A program made the translations under genes and the position numbers. Below are positions 5,066 through 33,675 of a DNA stretch of 33,937 nt, piece by piece (positions within the stretch are counted from its first letter, which is position 1; every line of letters starts with the position of its first letter). The DNA is from Candidatus Hydrogenedentota bacterium (GTDB lineage: Bacteria > Hydrogenedentota > Hydrogenedentia > Hydrogenedentales > CAITNO01). The notes beneath the pieces were generated by a model. The model saw only the letters and a list, made by a program, of their open reading frames with translations, ran no database searches and was not told the origin of the DNA. Location of the stretch: positions 1-33,937 of the forward strand of contig JAAYBJ010000206.1 in the NCBI GenBank assembly GCA_012730105.1. Direction: 5' to 3'.

Positions 5066-7336
5066 ATGTTTAGAAAAATATCGTTGCCGGTAGTGTTTAT
5101 TTTGGTTTTGGGAATCGGCATATTAACCCCACTGTTTCCGGCCGGAGCGCAGGAGATTGCGGCGCCGTTATATCAGGTGGTTTCGCCGGTGCGGGAGAAT
5201 CCAAAGAGCGATGGAGTGGTCGTGCGCAGCGCCGAGGTTCGCCTTGCTTCTGACTTGTTCGCATTGGGCGCCAAGACGGACAGAGACCCGCTTTGTTTTC
5301 CCACGTTTTCCGGAGATGTCTTCGGAGAAGTATCCTGGGAACGCGAACACGGCTCCGGCACGTTTTCCGTGGCGGGCGCGCTGACCGGGGAAAACAGCGG
5401 GCATTTTATTTTGACAGTCCACGCGGGCCATGTCACCATTTCCGTCCATGACACCAAGCGGGGCTGGCTTCGTGTGTCCAATTCGCCGGAGGGCTATGTG
5501 CTGGAGGAGATCGATGAGACCGCCCGCCCTGAATGCGGCGCGTGCCGGCATCCGGAAGCGTTTCGCGTTTCCGGCGGGCAACCGGCAGCGATACGAGGCA
5601 AGGCAGACAAGGAAGATCCCGCTATTATCGACGTGATGGTGGTTTATACGCCGGCCTCCAGGACGCTTGCGGGGAGTACGGCTGCCATGGAAACGATGAT
5701 TCTCAACGCAGTCGATATGGCGAATGTATCTTATGCGAACAGCCTTATTCCCCTGACCCTTACTGCGGTGCAGATGGCTGAGGTGGACTATGTTGAGGAT
5801 TATCAGCTGGCGCTGGCGTTGGCGAAACTCACCTTTGACAATGACGGTGTTATGGATGAAGTGCATGACCTGCGTGACGCCCATGAGGCCGATATGGTGT
5901 CTCTCATCGCGTCCGGCGGTGATGTGGCGGGCATCGGCTGGATATTGACCGCGTTGGATGCCACTATGGCGCAGCGCGCTTTCAGCATCACCACTTACTA
6001 TTCCCTGGGCAGCCTTACTTTCCCGCACGAACTGGGCCATAACATGGGCTGCGACCATGACCAGGAAAACATTACCGCTGACGGTTACCGGCTTTTCAGC
6101 TATGCCCGTGGCTGGCGCTTTTACGGAGCGGAAGACAGCAAACTGTATCGGACGGTTATGTCCTACGCGCCCGGCACGCGGATACCTTATTTTTCCAACC
6201 CGGACATCAATTACAAGGGTACGCCAACCGGCGTGCCCGTAGGCCTTCCGGACGAAGCGCACTGCGCCTTGACCATCACCCAGAGCGCGCCCTATCTCGC
6301 CCAGAACCGCCCCCAAATCGCGGAGGGTGAAACCGAAGGCGAAGCTCCTGTGGTGTACGAAGGGTATTACTGTGAGCTGCTTGGCGGCATCTATACGAAC
6401 GAGCTGCTGCGCAGCCTGCTGCCGCCTTTCGCCATCGCCCTGTTCGATCTGCTCGATCCCGAAACGGCGGATTTGAACGGCGGGGCGGACCCGGAAACCA
6501 TGACGTTCAACGGTAACGGCATGCTGGATTGCGGGTACGAGCTGGGCGTGTTCCGGAGAATTCTGGATACGGAGACGCTTGATCTAAGCAGTACGGGCGG
6601 CGTGCAGTATGAACAGGTCTATGAGGCGAACAGGAACAACCGTCTGCAGCTGGTCGCGGACATCGGTGCGAGTAACGCGGCCATCGTCAACGGCATCGCT
6701 CCCGGTCTGCTGGAAGTGGCCGCCGCTTATATTACCCTGGGCGATGAAGGCTCCACAGGTTTTATTGTGGGCTTGATGGACATTATCAACGAAGTGCAAT
6801 ATGTGGGCGACCTGAATCTTGCGCTGTACGTGCGCCTGCCGGAATTCCTGTCCGCCGAGGGGGACGCCGATGGTGACGGCGCCACCAATCGCGAGGAGTA
6901 TGAGGCGTACTATCAATACGGGCCTGATGCCTATGTCACCTACGCGCTGAATCCCTCCGTTTTCCCGGGCAGCACCGGCTCCGGCCAGGCAATTATCCTC
7001 GGCAGCCAGAAAGTGAAAGAGGGGGATGCAGTTACGCTGAGCGCGTTCCTGTCTTATATGGTAGGTACGGTGACGATCGCCTGGTACAAGGACGGTGTTG
7101 TGTTGGAGGGGCAGGCCGGCACGGAATACCACATCAGCAATGTGACGCCTGACGATGCGGGAGAATACCAGCTTCTCGTTACGGATGAAAGCAAGGGCCT
7201 GTATGAGAGTCCGCCATTTGTACTCGAGGTGATAACAGAGGCAAGTATGCCCGTTTCCAGTATCGTAGCGCTTGGCTTGCTGACGCTTGTGTTGCCCTGG
7301 TTTGGTGGCCGGCGCAGGAAACCTGTCCGGGGATAA
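5066..7336 (+). CDS. Secreted metzincin-type metalloprotease with EF-hand, Ig-like domain and C-terminal anchor
   Basis: A 756-residue exported protein. I chose the ATG at 5066 because AAAGGA lies about 10 nt upstream and a signal peptide follows immediately (cleavage near AGA-QE, residue about 29); an in-frame TTG at 5033 has neither. Residues about 190-430 are a zinc protease domain: HELGHNMGCDHD starting at His321 (HExxHxxGxxHD, metzincin type) and a Met-turn VMSY at Met365. This fits the reprolysin-like / peptidyl-Asp metallopeptidase families. After an acidic EGETEGEAP linker (about 420) comes an uncharacterised region with an EF-hand-like loop (Asp600, Asp602, Asp604, Glu611). An Ig-like domain follows (about 648-720, WYKDG and DAGEYQL). 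The end is Met728-Pro, a hydrophobic helix and RRRK (749-752), like a sortase-type anchor. It probably degrades proteins at the cell surface. Confidence 0.88.
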   Translation: MFRKISLPVVFILVLGIGILTPLFPAGAQEIAAPLYQVVSPVRENPKSDGVVVRSAEVRLASDLFALGAKTDRDPLCFPTFSGDVFGEVSWEREHGSGTFSVAGALTGENSGHFILTVHAGHVTISVHDTKRGWLRVSNSPEGYVLEEIDETARPECGACRHPEAFRVSGGQPAAIRGKADKEDPAIIDVMVVYTPASRTLAGSTAAMETMILNAVDMANVSYANSLIPLTLTAVQMAEVDYVEDYQLALALAKLTFDNDGVMDEVHDLRDAHEADMVSLIASGGDVAGIGWILTALDATMAQRAFSITTYYSLGSLTFPHELGHNMGCDHDQENITADGYRLFSYARGWRFYGAEDSKLYRTVMSYAPGTRIPYFSNPDINYKGTPTGVPVGLPDEAHCALTITQSAPYLAQNRPQIAEGETEGEAPVVYEGYYCELLGGIYTNELLRSLLPPFAIALFDLLDPETADLNGGADPETMTFNGNGMLDCGYELGVFRRILDTETLDLSSTGGVQYEQVYEANRNNRLQLVADIGASNAAIVNGIAPGLLEVAAAYITLGDEGSTGFIVGLMDIINEVQYVGDLNLALYVRLPEFLSAEGDADGDGATNREEYEAYYQYGPDAYVTYALNPSVFPGSTGSGQAIILGSQKVKEGDAVTLSAFLSYMVGTVTIAWYKDGVVLEGQAGTEYHISNVTPDDAGEYQLLVTDESKGLYESPPFVLEVITEASMPVSSIVALGLLTLVLPWFGGRRRKPVRG

Positions 7337-7435
7337 GTCCAAAAATAATCACCATGTGTGACACTCCTGTGCGCCGGGGGTGGTCATACTGTTATACTTT
7401 TCCCTTCACGAAATCATCCTGCAGAAAGGGCTTTT

Positions 7436-10400
7436 ATGCGCACCTATTATGGAAAAAATGTGGTTTTATGCTTGTCGACGGTGTTTGTGTTCTCCTTGAT
7501 ATTCCCTGCTCCGCCGTCGCGGGGTGAGGAGGCTTCCCTTTATGCCAGGGGCGCTTCCTGGCAGGAAACCATGCTGGCGATGCGGGCGAATTACCAGGCC
7601 TGGCGGTCGTCGCGTCCGGGTATGGACGGGCTCCGCTTCGGTCCGTGGAACGGCATCGAGCCTGTGCCTGCCCCCAGTTTTGATGATGCCGCGTTTCCCG
7701 AGCAGGGTGTGGATTTAAACGCGCGCAACGAGGTGGACAAGCGGCTGTGGCTGCGGCGCAATGAATTCAAGGATGGTGTTCCAAACGCTATGAACTGTCC
7801 GGACAAATCCGCAATCTACCTGGCGCGTGTGATTACTTCAGACGCCCCGGCCGTATTTAAGGCCGGGTTCGGTAGTGATGATGGCATCAAGGTGTGGTTG
7901 AACGGCGCGCTGTTGCTGTCCCGAAATGTGCCGCGAGGTGCGGCGCCGGACCAGGATATCGTGGAATTGCCGTTGCAGGCGGGCGAAAACATGTTGCTTA
8001 TCCGGATTTACAATATCAGCGGCGGCTGTGGATTCTATTTTGGGCCGGCCGGCGACCCGGTACAGGCCCTATGGAACCAGGTCCGGGCGGATTTTCCCGC
8101 TGAAAGCCACCGGATGGAAGGTGATTTGGGCGTGGAGAGCCCGTTGGCCTGGTTTTCCCTGCCGGACCCCGCAAAACTGGAAGAGGCCATGATTGTCCAA
8201 GCGCTGGGTCCCCGCGCTGACGCGGGCGCCCCGCTGGGCCTTGAATTTCAGGAACTCTCCGGGGTCGGGGGTGATTCTTCGCGCCGACTCGACTTATATA
8301 CGCGGGCGTGCGCGGCCCGGGACGGGGTGAACCGCCTGGACCTGGTGGATGTGGAAGCGTTGCGCCGGGCTATCAACCACCTCAGTGTGGCCTACCCTGA
8401 GGACTATACCGGGGGCGCGTCTTATCTGGCCCGCCTGGACAGCTTCACGGGGCGGATGGACGCGATCCGGGAGGGGATAAACAAGGCGGATGCGGCCGCA
8501 CTGGCTGCGATCGACGAACTGATCGCTCTGCAGCGCGAGGCCTTGCTGGCGAACCCGCTGCTTAATTTTGACACAGTCATGTTGATTCGCCGTTCGGAAG
8601 CCAATCTCGGCCTGCCTCAGAATTGGCAGGGCAATTGTTCCCTGCCGCGTCGGGGATATGACAATGAGCTTGTCGTATTGACGCCCTTTAAAAAAGACAG
8701 CACACCGGTCCGGATATACCGGCCGGAGCAGGATGTGCTCCTTGCGGATGTCGATCTGCATTTTGACGCGGACAAGATCCTGTTTTCCATGCCTGGCTCC
8801 CATAACCGCTGGCAGATCTGGGAGATGGTCGTCGATGGTGGCGGTCTGCGCCAGGTAACGCCGGGAACGGAACCGGATGTGGACAACTACGATGCCTGTT
8901 ATCTGCCGGATGGGCGTATAATTTTCGATTCCACCCGCTGTTTTCAAGGCATTCCCTGTGTGGGCGGCAGCGACGCCGTAGCGAACCTGTATATCATGAA
9001 CGCCGACGGCACTGGCATCCGGCAACTTTGTTTTGACCAGGACCACAATTGGTGTCCCACCGTGCTGAACAACGGGCGCGTGCTTTATTCACGATGGGAA
9101 TACTCCGACACGCCGCACTATTTTTCGCGCCTGCTGTTCCATATGAATCCCGACGGCACGAACCAGGTGGAATTTTACGGTAGCAACTCCTACTGGCCGA
9201 ATTCCATGTTTTACACACGGCCCATCCCCAACGATCCGACCAAAGTGGTTACCATCGTTTCTGGTCATCACGGGGTGGCCCGCTTCGGTGAACTCGTGAT
9301 TCTCGATCCTTCAAAAGGCCGCCACGAGTCCGACGGGGTGGTGCAGCGGATTCCGGGCCACGGGCAAGCGGTGGAGCCGGTGATTGCGGACCAGCTGGTG
9401 GAAAACAGCTGGCCACGGTTTCTGCACCCCTATCCGCTCAGTGAGCATTTTTTCCTGGTTTCCTGCAAACCCACGCCGGACAAGCCCGTGGGTCTATACC
9501 TCGTGGATACCTTCGACAATATGCTGCTTTTGCATGAAGAGCCCGGATACGCCATGCTCGAGCCTTTGCCGCTGCGAAAGCAGCCCGTGCCGCCAGTCAT
9601 TCCTGACCGGGTCAACCTGGCCCAAAAAGACGCCACCGTTTACCTGATGGACGTGTATGAAGGTCCGGGGTTGCGCAATGTGCCCCGGGGCACCGTAAAA
9701 GCGCTTCGACTGTATTCGTTCCACTATGGGTATCAGCGCATCGGCGGCCATCAGCATATAGGTATGGAGGGGCCTTGGGACGTGCGCCGTATTTTGGGGA
9801 CAGTGCCTGTATCGGAAGACGGATCCGCGTATTTCCGGGTGCCAGCCAACACGCCCATTGCCGTGCAACCCCTGGATCAGGAAGGCAAGGCCCTGCAGGT
9901 CATGCGCAGCTGGTTTACCGCCATGCCGGGCGAGGTGCTTTCCTGTGTGGGATGTCACGAGCCACAAAATACCGCGCCGCCCGCGCAGTTTACCCTGGCG
10001 GCGCGTCGTGTTCCGGATGATATTGCGCCCTGGTACGGCAAGGCGCGGGGCTTCAGTTTCAAGCATGAAGTACAGCCGGTGCTAGACCGTCATTGCGTCG
10101 GCTGTCACGGGGCGGAACCCATCACGGACGGGCGTCCCGATTTCAGGGATCACGAGGAACGGGGCGAATCCAACTTTAACAGGTCCTACCTGGCGCTGCA
10201 TCCCTACGTGCGGCGGCCCGGGCCGGAGAGTGACTATCATCTCCAGAAGCCCATGGAGTGGCACGCGGATACCAGCGAGTTGATTCAATTGCTTGGTAAA
10301 GGGCACAAAGGGGTTCAACTGGATGGGGAAGCGTGGGACCGGCTGATTACCTGGATAGACTTGAACGCGCCGGACCATGGCCGCTGGAGCGATCATACCA

Positions 10401-28498: not shown

Positions 28499-28622
28499 TA
28501 TGTTAGTTGCAATTTGAATATTTATTTTTTCGGTGTGTTTTTATGGCATTGCCGATGTTGTGGTTTGCACCGGCGAGGTTGCTTTTGTCGGCATAACCAG
28601 GCATGTGCCTGTTATAGGCAAC

Positions 28623-28641
28623 GCCTGCCAGGATGGCAGGC
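28623..28641 (+). other. Leader hairpin upstream of the H1-like gene
   Basis: GCCTGCCA and TGGCAGGC (28623-28630, 28634-28641) form a perfect 8-bp stem with loop GGA. No T-run follows. It lies about 85 nt before the start codon and may affect mRNA stability or translation. Confidence 0.5.
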
Positions 28642-28726
28642 AATGGCCTCGGTTGCTCATGAAGGAATGGGTGACCGGCAATAGTTGATACTGGGAGATG
28701 GCCACAACAATTAGGAGAAACATCAA

Positions 28727-29014
28727 ATGGCCGCAACGAAACCTGCAGTGAAGAAAGCCGCCGCGAAGAAGCCGGCCGCGAAGAAAGCCGCCGCGAAGAA
28801 GCCGGCCGCGAAGAAAGCCGCCGCGAAGAAGCCGGCCGCGAAGAAAGCCGCCGTGAAGAAACCGGCCGCGAAGAAAGCCGTCGCGAAGAAGCCGGCTGCG
28901 AAGAAAGCCGTCGCGAAGAAGCCGGCTGCGAAGAAACCGGCCGCGAAGAAACCGGCTGCGAAGAAACCGGCCGCGAAGAAACCGGCCGCGAAGAAAGCCG
29001 CCGCGAAGAAGTAA
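28727..29014 (+). CDS. Histone H1-like Lys/Ala/Pro-rich protein
   Basis: A 95-residue, extremely basic protein: MAATK followed by 18 pentapeptides of the form P/A-A-A/V-K-K, mostly alternating PAAKK with AAAKK and ending in five PAAKK copies and one AAAKK. It has the composition of the C-terminal tail of eukaryotic histone H1 and of bacterial H1-like proteins (Hc2, AlgP, BphA-type), which bind and condense DNA without sequence specificity. AGGAG at 28713-28717 precedes the ATG. Codon use is almost restricted to a 30-bp unit, which leaves misleading long open frames on the opposite strand. The protein has no globular domain. Copy number of the repeat is likely variable between strains. Confidence 0.88.
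   Translation: MAATKPAVKKAAAKKPAAKKAAAKKPAAKKAAAKKPAAKKAAVKKPAAKKAVAKKPAAKKAVAKKPAAKKPAAKKPAAKKPAAKKPAAKKAAAKK
28742..29011 (+). repeat. Tandem 15/30-bp repeat coding for PAAKK/AAAKK
   Basis: Eighteen 15-bp units, mostly arranged as 30-bp doublets (GCCGCCGCGAAGAAG, GCCGGCCGCGAAGAAA types), occupy 270 bp. The last third switches to near-identical PAAKK units. Exact long repeats of this kind are prone to slippage and recombination. Confidence 0.9.
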
Positions 29015-29051
29015 TCCTGCCGTCGGCAGGCATTCTTGTTGAGAATGAAGC

Positions 29052-29109
29052 AACGCCGCACAGGCTGTCCGGGTTTTCCCGTACAGGGTCTTGTGCGGCG
29101 TTCTTTATT
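29052..29109 (+). terminator. Probable terminator of the H1-like gene
   Basis: AACGCCGCACA (29052-29062) pairs perfectly with TGTGCGGCGTT (29092-29102). Inside the loop CGGG-TTTT-CCCG and flanking CTGT/ACAG can extend the structure, and CTTTATT follows. A smaller CCTGCC-GTC-GGCAGG hairpin (29016-29030) with a T-rich tail lies just after the stop. Confidence 0.7.
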
Positions 29110-29157
29110 GTGAATGACATTGAAAATTACGGAGCCAACTACCACGGGAGCATCCAA

Positions 29158-31365
29158 GTGAACCATGAGCATATCCGCGCAGCGCTTCAGCGTGCCGTTA
29201 CATACGCGCAGGCGCCGGGCGCTGTGGCATGTGTGGGGAAAGGTGAAGAACGGCTTTTCCTGGGCGGCTCGGGGCATCGCGCGCTGACACCCGGCGAGGA
29301 GCCGGCCACGGCGGACACGGTGTATGATCTTGCTTCTCTGACGAAAGTTGTTGCGACGACGACAGCCGTCATGTTGTTGCGTAATCGCGGCATACTCGAT
29401 CTAAACCAGCCGGTGTCGGACTTCATCCCCCTTCCAAACCTGAACCGGTTTACCCTGCGCCACCTGATCACCCACACCTCGGGGCTGGAGGCGTGGCGCC
29501 CCTGGTATACGGAATTATCCGGAAGGCTTCAGTATGTGGAGCGCATTGCCGCTGAAGCGGGCGGCGCGCAGCCCGGCATCCGGCGTGAATATTCGGACTT
29601 TGGATTCATTTTGCTTGCGCGGGTGGTGGAACAGGCGGCCCAGGATACCTTCGACGGTTTTTGCATGAAACACATTTTCGAGCCCCTTCAGATGAAGGAT
29701 ACTTGTTTCACACCGTCTGCGGCGCTTCGCGAACGGTGCGCGCCTACGGAAGATAGTATTGAACGGGGCCGTCTGATTCGCGGCGAGGTGCATGACGACA
29801 ATGCATTTGCCCAAGGCGGCGTTTCCGGACATGCCGGTTTGTTCAGTACAGCGGAAGATCTGGAGCGTTTCTGCCGTGCCCTGATGGATGGCCGCGTACT
29901 GCCGATGGAAACTCTGGATGAAATGACGCGCATTGGCCAGGTGCGCTGTTATCCTTGGCAGGGGTTGGGCTGGTGGCTCGATCCGTGCGTATCAGGTGCG
30001 AATGGATTTCTTCCAGCGCGAACGGCCATGGGACATACGGGCTGGACGGGCACCTGTATCTGGATGGACCGCGCGACCCGGCTATATGCGATTCTACTTT
30101 CCAACACGTGCCACCCCGACAAGACCAGGCGCAACAACCGGGAACTGCGCCGACGTTTTTATACACCGATTGCCGCCGCTTTTTACCCGGAAACCACAAA
30201 TGCGCATACCGGTTTGGACAGGTTGGTGCGTAACGCCTTTGATGATCTGCGCGGCAAGCGTCTGGCGCTGCTGGCCAATACGGCCGCCGTGGACCAGACC
30301 GGCCGGCCGATCCTGGAAACACTCGGTTTGGAGAAACTGCTGCAGCTGCGTTATGTCTACAGTCCTGAGCATGGCTTTACGGGAAGCGCCGAAGCCGGGG
30401 AGAAGGTGGCATCCAGTCAGGAATCCGTCCCGTTCATCAGTTTATATGGGGATCGTAAACAGCCTTCGCGGGAAGAGCTTAAAAACGTTGATTTGTTTGT
30501 GGTGGACCTTCCTGACATTGGCGCCCGATACTACACCTATATGGCCACCATGAAGGACTGCATGGAAGCCTGTGCCGCGTACAAGGTGCCCATGCTGATT
30601 CTTGACCGGCCGAATCCCGTAGGCGGCGCCATTCTCGAAGGACCTATAGCCGCGAAATACGGTTCTCCCGTCTGCTGCGCACCCATTCCCATACGGCATG
30701 GCATGACCCTGGGCGAGCTTGCCCTTTATTTCAAGCAAAGCTTCTTCTCACGGACAAGTCTGGACGTGAAGGTTTGCCTGGCCGACAACTGGTGGCGTGA
30801 GCTGCAGTTTGACAGTTGTAGTCTTCCCTGGGTGGCGCCGTCGCCGAACATACCCGCCAGTGAATCGGCGCTCATGTATGTCGGCACCTGCCTCTTTGAA
30901 GGCTTGAACCTGAATGAAGGGCGGGGCACCAAAACCCCCTTCCTGGTGTGCGGCGCGCCCTGGCTGCGTCCCGTGCGTGTGCTGAAGAAAGTAAAGGAAT
31001 CGGATCATCCGGGCATCTCGATAAAGGGTGTCATGTATATTCCGGAATCCATACCCGGTAAGGCGTCCAATCCCAAGTACCGGGACCAATTATGTCAGGG
31101 GATCACCTTTCATGTTACGGACCGCCGCACAGCCCGGCCGTTCACGGCGGCCGTTGCCGTCATCAGCGCCATATTCCAGTGCCACCCTGAACTGCAATGG
31201 GATCCGTTTTTTGACACACTGGCGGGCGGGCCCTGGATTCGTGAACAGATCGTGTCAGGCCGCTCCGCGCAGGACATCGTGGAAAGTATCCGTCCGGATC
31301 TGGAAGCCTTTGACGCGTCGCGTCCCCGCCTTTATGACACGCTTGAGCAGCGCGCGCTGGTGTAA
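29158..31365 (+). CDS. Fusion of AmiE-like serine amidase and NamZ-type exo-N-acetylmuramidase
   Basis: A 735-residue two-domain protein. I place the start at the GTG at 29158 (GGGAG 7 nt upstream); a GTG at 29110 lies next to the terminator and has no ribosome-binding site. Residues about 1-345 are a serine hydrolase of the class C beta-lactamase fold: SLTK (Ser60, Lys63), YSD (Tyr145) and HTG (293-295). Residues about 353-735 match the DUF1343/NamZ family (GH171): RLALLANTAAVDQTG, YSPEHGFTGSAEAGE (Glu404, His405), VVDLPDIGARYYTY (Asp453) and DRPNPVGG. In Bacillus subtilis the separate genes amiE and namZ lie together: AmiE removes the peptide from MurNAc and NamZ releases terminal MurNAc. 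The fusion suggests one polypeptide performs both muropeptide-recycling steps. No signal peptide is evident, so location is uncertain. Confidence 0.88.
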   Translation: MNHEHIRAALQRAVTYAQAPGAVACVGKGEERLFLGGSGHRALTPGEEPATADTVYDLASLTKVVATTTAVMLLRNRGILDLNQPVSDFIPLPNLNRFTLRHLITHTSGLEAWRPWYTELSGRLQYVERIAAEAGGAQPGIRREYSDFGFILLARVVEQAAQDTFDGFCMKHIFEPLQMKDTCFTPSAALRERCAPTEDSIERGRLIRGEVHDDNAFAQGGVSGHAGLFSTAEDLERFCRALMDGRVLPMETLDEMTRIGQVRCYPWQGLGWWLDPCVSGANGFLPARTAMGHTGWTGTCIWMDRATRLYAILLSNTCHPDKTRRNNRELRRRFYTPIAAAFYPETTNAHTGLDRLVRNAFDDLRGKRLALLANTAAVDQTGRPILETLGLEKLLQLRYVYSPEHGFTGSAEAGEKVASSQESVPFISLYGDRKQPSREELKNVDLFVVDLPDIGARYYTYMATMKDCMEACAAYKVPMLILDRPNPVGGAILEGPIAAKYGSPVCCAPIPIRHGMTLGELALYFKQSFFSRTSLDVKVCLADNWWRELQFDSCSLPWVAPSPNIPASESALMYVGTCLFEGLNLNEGRGTKTPFLVCGAPWLRPVRVLKKVKESDHPGISIKGVMYIPESIPGKASNPKYRDQLCQGITFHVTDRRTARPFTAAVAVISAIFQCHPELQWDPFFDTLAGGPWIREQIVSGRSAQDIVESIRPDLEAFDASRPRLYDTLEQRALV

Positions 31366-31370
31366 ATGAG

Positions 31371-32585
31371 TCAATAGCGCTTACGTGTTACGAAGAGATA
31401 TTCCGCAAGGGCGCGGTACATCCAGGCTACGCCCCAGCGCGGGAACACAATGCGCGATGTAAAGAAGGGATAGGCGCGGTACCGGGGTGCGCCATCCCGG
31501 GGATCGCGCATGGCGTAGTGGGTCCAGCGCATCACCAGCAGGGCGGCGTCAATTGCGCCGGGCCGCAACTCCGCCAGCACGCTGTTGCACAGGATGCCTT
31601 CGGCGCAGGCGTGAATATCCACCGGCCACGTACCGTACGCGTTGATGGGCGTGCCATCCGGGCGGATGAGCGTCCTGTAGAATCTGTACCCTTTTTTAAG
31701 CGCCCCGGAAAGCTCCGGCGAAGGTAACACGCTGTTGATGCCATGCAGGGCGCGCAGCACGAAACCGGTGTGGTGATGGTCCACGAGTCCCATCAGCTTC
31801 GGCTCGTACGGTTCCCCTGCGCCGCTCGCGCCATAGGGCCACGCGCCGTCTTCGCGCTGCGCGGACAGGCTGAACGCAATGGCGGGCCCGGCTTCCTCCT
31901 TCATGGCGGCATTTCCCGCGCGTTCCGCCGTTTTCACGATGTGTTCCGCCGCAAGCAGGTTGGCGTTGTGCACGCGCCGGCGGTCCACGGGGGTGTACGC
32001 GAAACACCAGGCGCCGTTCTCACAGGGAATGCGCGGCAGTTCTTCCAGGAAGAAAGCGGCGATGCCGAGCGCCGTGTCAAGGTGGCTTTGGTCGCGGGTG
32101 ATTTCATGAGCGAGCAGGAAGGCCTCACCCGCAATGGCGCACACCACACTGACGGGCGTATAGGCGGGGCAGTCCAGACCTGTCGCCCGCACGGGAAAGG
32201 GATATCCCCAGCACGGACCCGCGTGGCCCGGAACGGCCAGATGTGACAACTGTTCCAGCGTATTGAGTCCGTTCTCGAGATGGACCGCGTCACCGGTAAT
32301 CTGGTGCAACCGAAGATGGCCCAGCGCTGTCAGGGCGAGCGCCTTGGGATTGATGGCGGGTTGAATCCGGAGCAGCCGTCGGGACAGTGTCGGAAAGATA
32401 TCACACAGGGCTGTGGAACCCTTGCGCAGCAACGGACGGTGTTGTATGCCGCTTATCCATGGATGCGCCTTGATGTCGAAGGGATCGTACCCGGCCAGGC
32501 CGTGCCGCCGCAGCCAGGTGTGCAACTGGAGGATCCATTCCTGGGCCAGGTGAATGTCCCTGTCGTTGGTCAGGCGCAACGGCAT
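31371..32585 (-). CDS. Uncharacterised protein, probable alpha/alpha-barrel fold, coupled to a glycosyltransferase
   Basis: A 404-residue protein beginning at the ATG at 32585, one base after the stop of the upstream glycosyltransferase gene, with GGAGG 11 nt upstream. The longer open frame (to 32705) runs inside that gene and is discarded. The chain is a series of paired helices with Trp/Tyr/Gly/Pro-rich turns (PCWGYPFPVRATG, CENGAWCFAYTPVD, NANLLAAEHIVKTAE, REDGAWPYG, DHHHTGFVLRALHGI), as in six-hairpin alpha/alpha toroids such as glucuronyl epimerases, polysaccharide lyases and cyclase-like proteins. HHHTGF and YGTWPVDIHACAEGI look like active-site segments. I cannot assign an enzyme activity; a role in polysaccharide synthesis or modification follows from its neighbour only. 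Confidence 0.8.
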   Translation of the reverse strand: MPLRLTNDRDIHLAQEWILQLHTWLRRHGLAGYDPFDIKAHPWISGIQHRPLLRKGSTALCDIFPTLSRRLLRIQPAINPKALALTALGHLRLHQITGDAVHLENGLNTLEQLSHLAVPGHAGPCWGYPFPVRATGLDCPAYTPVSVVCAIAGEAFLLAHEITRDQSHLDTALGIAAFFLEELPRIPCENGAWCFAYTPVDRRRVHNANLLAAEHIVKTAERAGNAAMKEEAGPAIAFSLSAQREDGAWPYGASGAGEPYEPKLMGLVDHHHTGFVLRALHGINSVLPSPELSGALKKGYRFYRTLIRPDGTPINAYGTWPVDIHACAEGILCNSVLAELRPGAIDAALLVMRWTHYAMRDPRDGAPRYRAYPFFTSRIVFPRWGVAWMYRALAEYLFVTRKRY

Positions 32586-32586
32586 G

Positions 32587-33675
32587 TCACTTCGCGCCTC
32601 CATCACGCGCCGCACGTTGAAGCACGTTTTTAAACACCGGGTAATAGGCGGCAATCGAATACTGCGCTTCGATATAACGCCGTGCCGCCCGCCCCATGCG
32701 TTCACGCAAGCCGGGGTCCGTTATCAAGCGCTCAAGTTTGTCTTGCCATTCTTCCGGCGATTCCGCGAGGAAACCGGTTACCCCGTCTTCGACCACCGTC
32801 TTGTTCATGCCCACAGGCGACAACACCACCGGCGTGCCCACGCCCATATACTGCAGCGCCTTGAAGGCGCACTTGCCCCGGGCGCGCGGGGTATCCTCCA
32901 GCGGCATCAGGCCGATATCCGCTTCAGACAAGTAGTCGATCTCTTCACTCATGGTCCAGGTACGGTTCCGGACGGTGATGCCGGGGAAAGTATAGGGCTT
33001 TGATGTGGACACCATCAGTTCGAGGGGATAACGTTCGGACAGCGTTTTGATGATGGGCGCGATACGGTCCAGGTAGCCGAGATTGTCGCTCAGGCCTGTC
33101 CAGCCCAGCACGACCGGCCTGTCACGGTCCGCCGGAGGGTATGGTTTCTGCCGGTGCAGGTCCATGTCGATGCAGGTGGGAATGATTGTCGCCGGGCAGC
33201 CCGCCTGTTCCACGTAGGCTTTGATCACTTCATTGCCCGCGACAGCGTGACGGCACCATCGTGCCAGTTTCGCGGTCCAGCCAAAATCCATGAAACGGAC
33301 GAAGGGACTTTCCACGAACGCGGGCCGTTCCCAGATGGCATCGTCCAAGTCCATAACGAGACGCTTGTTTAAGCAATGAATGATACGCTCGAATAACGGC
33401 GGGCCGTAGGGGAACACGGGTCCCCGGAAAAAGACCGCATCCGCGCCGATGACATGCCGCAATTGGGTTATTCGGCGCGCCAGGACCAGCAACAGATACA
33501 GCAGTTTGCCCAGCCTGCCCCGCGACTCATAGAACCGCTCTTTCTGGTTCACGGACGCCGGAACGCATACCACACAGCTGTGGCCTTCCTGTTCCAGCAG
33601 GCGTGCGAACGATTCCACACGATACCGTATGGCGGCGATTTTGCGTGTTTCGCAGGCGAAGAAAACAAATTTCAT
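32587..33675 (-). CDS. Family 4 glycosyltransferase
   Basis: A 362-residue GT-B enzyme. It begins MKFVFFACETRKIAAIRYRVESFARLLEQEGH and has DLDDAIWERP in the N-terminal domain and GWTGLSDNLGYL at the domain junction. The late ADIGLMPLEDTPRARGKCAFKALQYMGVGTPVVLSPVG followed by VEDGVTGFLA forms the donor site. The expected second Glu position is occupied within the KCAFKALQYM segment, typical of this GT4 sub-group. AAGGAG lies 15 nt before the ATG at 33675, which is long; an upstream ATG at 33702 has no ribosome-binding site. It is followed by the alpha/alpha-barrel gene and likely forms a two-gene unit with it, perhaps for exopolysaccharide or surface glycan assembly. Confidence 0.88.
   Translation of the reverse strand: MKFVFFACETRKIAAIRYRVESFARLLEQEGHSCVVCVPASVNQKERFYESRGRLGKLLYLLLVLARRITQLRHVIGADAVFFRGPVFPYGPPLFERIIHCLNKRLVMDLDDAIWERPAFVESPFVRFMDFGWTAKLARWCRHAVAGNEVIKAYVEQAGCPATIIPTCIDMDLHRQKPYPPADRDRPVVLGWTGLSDNLGYLDRIAPIIKTLSERYPLELMVSTSKPYTFPGITVRNRTWTMSEEIDYLSEADIGLMPLEDTPRARGKCAFKALQYMGVGTPVVLSPVGMNKTVVEDGVTGFLAESPEEWQDKLERLITDPGLRERMGRAARRYIEAQYSIAAYYPVFKNVLQRAARDGGAK

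Follow-up and report, generated by a model that had tools for sequence, protein, structure and literature searches.

The gene at 29158..31365 (+) of the window (the 33,937-nucleotide stretch of a Candidatus Hydrogenedentota MAG analysed here) raises the question of whether a serine hydrolase and a NamZ-type muramidase are genuinely joined in one polypeptide in this organism and, if so, what such a polypeptide would do in the metabolism of the cell wall.

Architecture and spread of the fusion

The reading frame is uninterrupted from its GTG start to a TAA stop and encodes a product of 735 residues. An alternative in-frame GTG at 29110 would add 16 residues; the start at 29158 is favoured because the homologue in genome G003 begins with MNEDMLRMIL, which lines up with the first residue of the shorter product. 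Pfam searches placed an S12/β-lactamase-fold domain (PF00144) of PBP4B/AmiE type, a predicted MurNAc-L-Ala amidase, at 29182..30153 (+) (residues 9–332, E = 1.3e-59). It is followed by NamZ_N (PF07075), the predicted catalytic N-terminal domain of exo-β-N-acetylmuramidases, at 30265..30858 (+) (residues 370–567, E = 1.2e-61), and by NamZ_C (PF20732) at 30871..31329 (+) (residues 572–724, E = 5.8e-39). All three domains score far over the curated Pfam cut-offs (208.2 bits vs 26.9 for NamZ_N and 134.7 vs 25 for NamZ_C), and both NamZ domains are complete. Within the S12 domain, three motifs aligned in register with other S12 proteins: S60-L-T-K63 (29335..29346, +), the SxxK motif with the predicted nucleophile Ser60 and Lys63; Y145-S-D147 (29590..29598, +), where others have YxN; and H293-T-G295 (30034..30042, +), part of HTGWTG, where others have KTG. 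The frame itself, the Pfam search and the motif alignment thus confirm the earlier note's description of a single frame with SxxK, YSD and HTG motifs followed by a complete DUF1343/NamZ domain.

We considered the possibility that the fusion was an artefact, or that a frameshift had been overlooked that would divide it into two genes, as the earlier note had envisaged. The intact frame rules out a frameshift. Full-length fused frames with 41–74% identity are found in dozens of independent Hydrogenedentota genomes, so an artefact of assembly is not the explanation. An AlphaFold2 run on a three-row alignment of the fusion gave a mean pLDDT of 37.6, and the model was not used.

NamZ_N was matched in 61 of 68 Hydrogenedentota genomes, once per genome, and all of these matches sit in fused frames, barring those that a contig end truncates; direct inspection of four such ends was consistent with truncation of a fused frame. 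The Hydrogenedentota fusions form a single group in both the S12 tree (100/99) and the NamZ tree (100/97), which indicates that the fusion is ancestral or near-ancestral in the phylum. The S12–NamZ fusion is real and phylum-wide in Hydrogenedentota. Divergent fusions with 41–43% identity make up family f7 (L089, L090 and L091), in which SAEHG or AGEHG replaces SPEHG; their remaining motifs are kept, and their host genomes have no clear MurQ match.

Just 5′ of the gene, at 28750-29011, lies a tandem array of ≈8.7 copies of a 30-bp unit, which accounts for a low-complexity SSRPVSS ORF (28503-29120, −) and for the long open frame before the gene start. A 444-residue ORF at 31371-32705 (−) is convergent with the fusion gene and is kept as its neighbour in four genomes (that of the window, G001, G003 and G013); it had no match in Pfam or NCBIfam.

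Identity of the two halves

The C-terminal half aligned over its full length with PDB 4jja (5.7e-56) and also matched 4k05. The 4jja protein, deposited as a hypothetical protein, is presumably Bacteroides fragilis NamZ; it corresponds to the C-terminal half of the fusion, but stands alone. The positions kept in at least 95% of 41 NamZ sequences are all present: E404, H405 and G406 (30367..30375, +; the EHG that is the conserved part of the SPEHG motif), D450, D453, R457, D483–P487 (DRPNP), H514, E520, P561–N564 (PSPN) and G588–T591 (GRGT). On this sequence evidence, the C-terminal half is probably a GH171/NamZ exo-β-N-acetylmuramidase.

The S12 half was placed in a tree of 55 S12 domains, which included 13 Hydrogenedentota S12 paralogues; B. 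subtilis AmiE (O05213) was not among them. The fusion domains grouped with E. coli PBP4B, with S12 proteins from the MurNAc operons of Deinococcus and Thermomicrobium, and with haloarchaeal, Listeria and Enterococcus S12 proteins, to the exclusion of AmpC, AmpH and 12 of the 13 paralogues (99/99). The sole paralogue inside the clade, par_L134, has a very long branch and its placement is unsure; E. coli PBP4B is also long-branched. A grouping with esterases or β-lactamases rather than with AmiE, one of the two outcomes that the earlier note had named as refuting its reading, did not occur. The best NCBIfam model for the S12 half was PBP4B (PRK03642; 102.9 bits, 1.7e-29), below its curated cut-off of 385, while AmpH scored 69.0 and class C β-lactamase 46.4 bits against a cut-off of 415. 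A class C β-lactamase identity was rejected on the basis of that last score, the separation from AmpC in the tree, and the presence of YSD and HTG rather than YxN and KTG.

The replacement of YxN by YSD had been presented as a feature of this protein. YSD is indeed present, and AmpC and AmpH carry YxN and KTG (YAN in AmpC, YSN in AmpH); however, YSD is not peculiar to the fusion. Together with HTGxTG, VHD and SGHAGLF, it is general across the clade; exceptions include haloarchaeal YSC, the YAD and YTD of Listeria and Enterococcus, and the HLG of the Burkholderia fusions. YSD is thus a mark of the PBP4B/MurNAc-operon group.

By gene context, this clade belongs to MurNAc use. In E. coli, yfeW (PBP4B) comes after murQ-murP, and the Deinococcus S12 gene comes after murQ. 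The Thermomicrobium gene lies between nagA and anmK, accompanied by genes for a β-N-acetylhexosaminidase, a BadF kinase and murQ, and in haloarchaea S12, NamZ, nagZ and anmK are clustered. On plasmids of Haladaptatus and Halorussus (L069 5974-11088 and L111 2977-8227), genes for S12, a hypothetical protein, NamZ and NagZ stand in a row, with AnmK nearby. To our knowledge, haloarchaea have no murein, and this row possibly serves the scavenging of bacterial walls.

Taken by its clade and motifs, the S12 half is probably a MurNAc-L-Ala amidase of the AmiE/PBP4B clade. E. coli PBP4B (YfeW) resembles it in DLAS-x-TK, YSD, HTGWTG and SGHAGLFS and in having its gene in the murQP operon, but is a longer single-domain protein (434 residues) without NamZ. 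PBP4B was reported to be a DD-carboxypeptidase (Vega and Ayala 2006, as cited in PMC5061867 and PMC4916385), and membership of the clade therefore leaves the cleaved bond unfixed. The S12 half could accordingly be a PBP4B-like DD-carboxypeptidase or endopeptidase that trims peptides, with NamZ using sugars freed by another amidase, a reading with which the sub-threshold NCBIfam match agrees. We consider it unlikely. The location of the PBP4B gene in the murQP operon suggests that the physiological role of PBP4B is itself likely to be MurNAc salvage, and the fusion apparently has no signal peptide (see below), whereas the substrate of DD-carboxypeptidases is the periplasmic wall. Furthermore, NamZ prefers peptide-free MurNAc, so that a fusion to NamZ favours an amidase as its partner.

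MurNAc pathway genes and cell location

The placement of the fusion in peptidoglycan recycling, which the earlier note had proposed, is supported by MurNAc genes, which are found elsewhere in this genome and, in two relatives, next to the fusion gene. In the genome itself, contig C94 (L116, G000:C94) carries at 5438-9953 (−) a BadF/BcrA-type kinase::MurQ fusion, a SpoIID-domain protein and AnmK, with overlapping ends; the 5′ end of the kinase::MurQ ORF is truncated by the contig end. These three genes apparently form one MurNAc-recycling operon. In T. forsythia, the BadF-family protein MurK is a proven MurNAc kinase, and its gene adjoins murQ (PMC5790795). Contig C332 of the same genome encodes a GH3 NagZ-type protein that has a LysM domain. 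At L112 1231-2508 (−), a GH3 NagZ-type protein has a C-terminal LysM and a hydrophobic N-terminus, suggestive of a wall-bound, exported glucosaminidase. AmpG was searched for and not found.

In genome G045, the genes for kinase::MurQ, SpoIID and AnmK begin ≈1.3 kb downstream of the S12–NamZ fusion, and in G047 AnmK and MurQ adjoin the fusion gene on the opposite strand. Apart from these two genomes, no conserved operon was found around the fusion gene in 20 relatives. Clear MurQ matches were present in about 49 of the 68 genomes, mostly as frames of ≈600 residues that fit the kinase::MurQ fusion. Most of the remaining genomes (about 19 of 68) retain the S12–NamZ fusion, several good genomes among them, so MurQ is not an obligate partner of the fusion.

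With either start, 29158 or 29110, no signal peptide is visible in the fusion protein; this judgement, and with it the reading of location, rests on a hydropathy scan of the N-termini. In 32 of the 43 Hydrogenedentota sequences with an upstream stop in view, at most 15 residues of extra N-terminus are possible, and none shows a strongly hydrophobic stretch. Given this absence of an export signal, the fusion protein is probably cytosolic in Hydrogenedentota. The kinase::MurQ fusion is probably cytosolic too. The fusions in G057 and G023 (L042 and L086) have twin-arginine-like N-termini (RRAFTQL and RRQFARQ), possibly reflecting a change of compartment inside one family.

We think it likely that the protein is a single-chain peptidoglycan-recycling enzyme with two active sites, an S12 amidase and NamZ, whose product would be passed to kinase::MurQ. 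In such a scheme, the S12 site would take the stem peptide off MurNAc, as a MurNAc-L-Ala amidase does, and NamZ (GH171) would then split the exposed non-reducing-end MurNAc from MurNAc-GlcNAc. The BadF-type kinase half of the C94 fusion would phosphorylate the free MurNAc, and the MurQ half would cleave the lactyl ether to yield GlcNAc-6P. From the sequences we infer that both halves would be catalytically active and would act in this order, that their coupling would be of benefit, and that the reactions would take place in the cytosol on imported fragments. Several observations count against this reading: the DD-carboxypeptidase report for PBP4B, the lack of a common operon in most genomes, the genomes without a clear MurQ match, the failure to find AmpG, and the two Tat-like relatives.

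The last of these bears on a different possibility, namely extracellular digestion of foreign peptidoglycan by the fusion, which would then serve scavenging and not the recycling of the cell's own wall. The Tat-like relatives, the hydrophobic signal-like N-termini of fusions in Burkholderia and Cupriavidus, and the clustering of separate S12, NamZ and NagZ genes in murein-free haloarchaea are consistent with scavenging; however, an export signal is absent from the window protein and from most of the phylum, and the genome has the pathway genes for using MurNAc internally, which makes extracellular digestion quite improbable here. Imported foreign wall fragments may nevertheless be used in the cytosol. 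That the S12 half is catalytically dead and merely a binding module, as the changes from YxN to YSD and from KTG to HTG might suggest, is hardly credible, since SxxK and the Tyr are kept across Hydrogenedentota and the same YSD and HTG occur in PBP4B, for which activity has been reported in the literature cited above.

Comparison with known systems and origin of the fusion

The amidase–muramidase reading of the fusion can be compared with the B. subtilis system, where the cluster is murQRP-amiE-nagZ-ybbC and AmiE is the MurNAc-L-Ala amidase (PMC5061867). The earlier note had described amiE and namZ as separate, neighbouring genes of one pathway; separate genes of one pathway they are, but nagZ stands between amiE and namZ (ybbC) in that cluster (PMC5061867). 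The B. subtilis enzymes AmiE, NagZ and NamZ (YbbE, YbbD and YbbC) include the AmiE and NamZ families that are joined in the fusion and serve a single MurNAc-recycling pathway. In B. subtilis, however, they are separate and extracellular, with a murQRP operon and PTS uptake, whereas here there is one probably cytosolic chain, and the genome encodes a kinase::MurQ fusion.

The DDPept-DUF1343 architecture was already listed in 2008 (YP_439122.1; PMC2605481), as were Glyco_hydr_3-DDPept fusions, in which S12 is joined to a GH3 peptidoglycan-type glycosidase and not to NamZ (PMC2605481). Fusions on Burkholderia and Cupriavidus plasmids (WP_059583925.1 and WP_342482048.1) have the same order, S12–NamZ_N–NamZ_C, in one chain, but differ from those of Hydrogenedentota in their signal-like N-termini and in the group to which their NamZ belongs; NCBI names a Burkholderia fusion after its NamZ domain. 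On the Cupriavidus (L073 2806-7244) and Burkholderia (L074 2823-7196) plasmids, the fusion comes directly after a gene for a glycoside hydrolase (DUF4015 in L073), and both genes share a strand with a polysaccharide deacetylase gene.

The NamZ tree (support 98/94) groups the Hydrogenedentota NamZ half with Bacteroidota-type NamZ from Spirosoma and Parabacteroides, plus Providencia, and the Burkholderia half with NamZ from Paenibacillus, haloarchaea, Streptomyces and Subdoligranulum. This distribution suggests two fusion events. AU tests did not reject a single shared event (p-AU 0.245 and 0.535), and two independent events are therefore not claimed. More tentatively, and with some doubt on our part, Hydrogenedentota may have formed the fusion independently, with a Bacteroidota-like NamZ, and may then have given up its export, which would have created a cytosolic MurNAc-recycling line of two bifunctional proteins (amidase–muramidase followed by kinase–etherase), unlike the exported versions of B. 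subtilis and Burkholderia.

The novelty is modest: to an architecture known since 2008, the present analysis adds its phylum-wide occurrence and a probable change of compartment. A literature search found no account of the fusion as a recycling enzyme, although the main NamZ paper (JBC 2021, PMC8054146) was outside its reach. The phylum-wide fusion is strong natural evidence that MurNAc-operon S12 hydrolases and NamZ work sequentially on one substrate, and it suggests a recycling function for PBP4B-like proteins, such as the one encoded beside murQP in E. coli. It also offers a compact protein for studying peptide removal and MurNAc release jointly.
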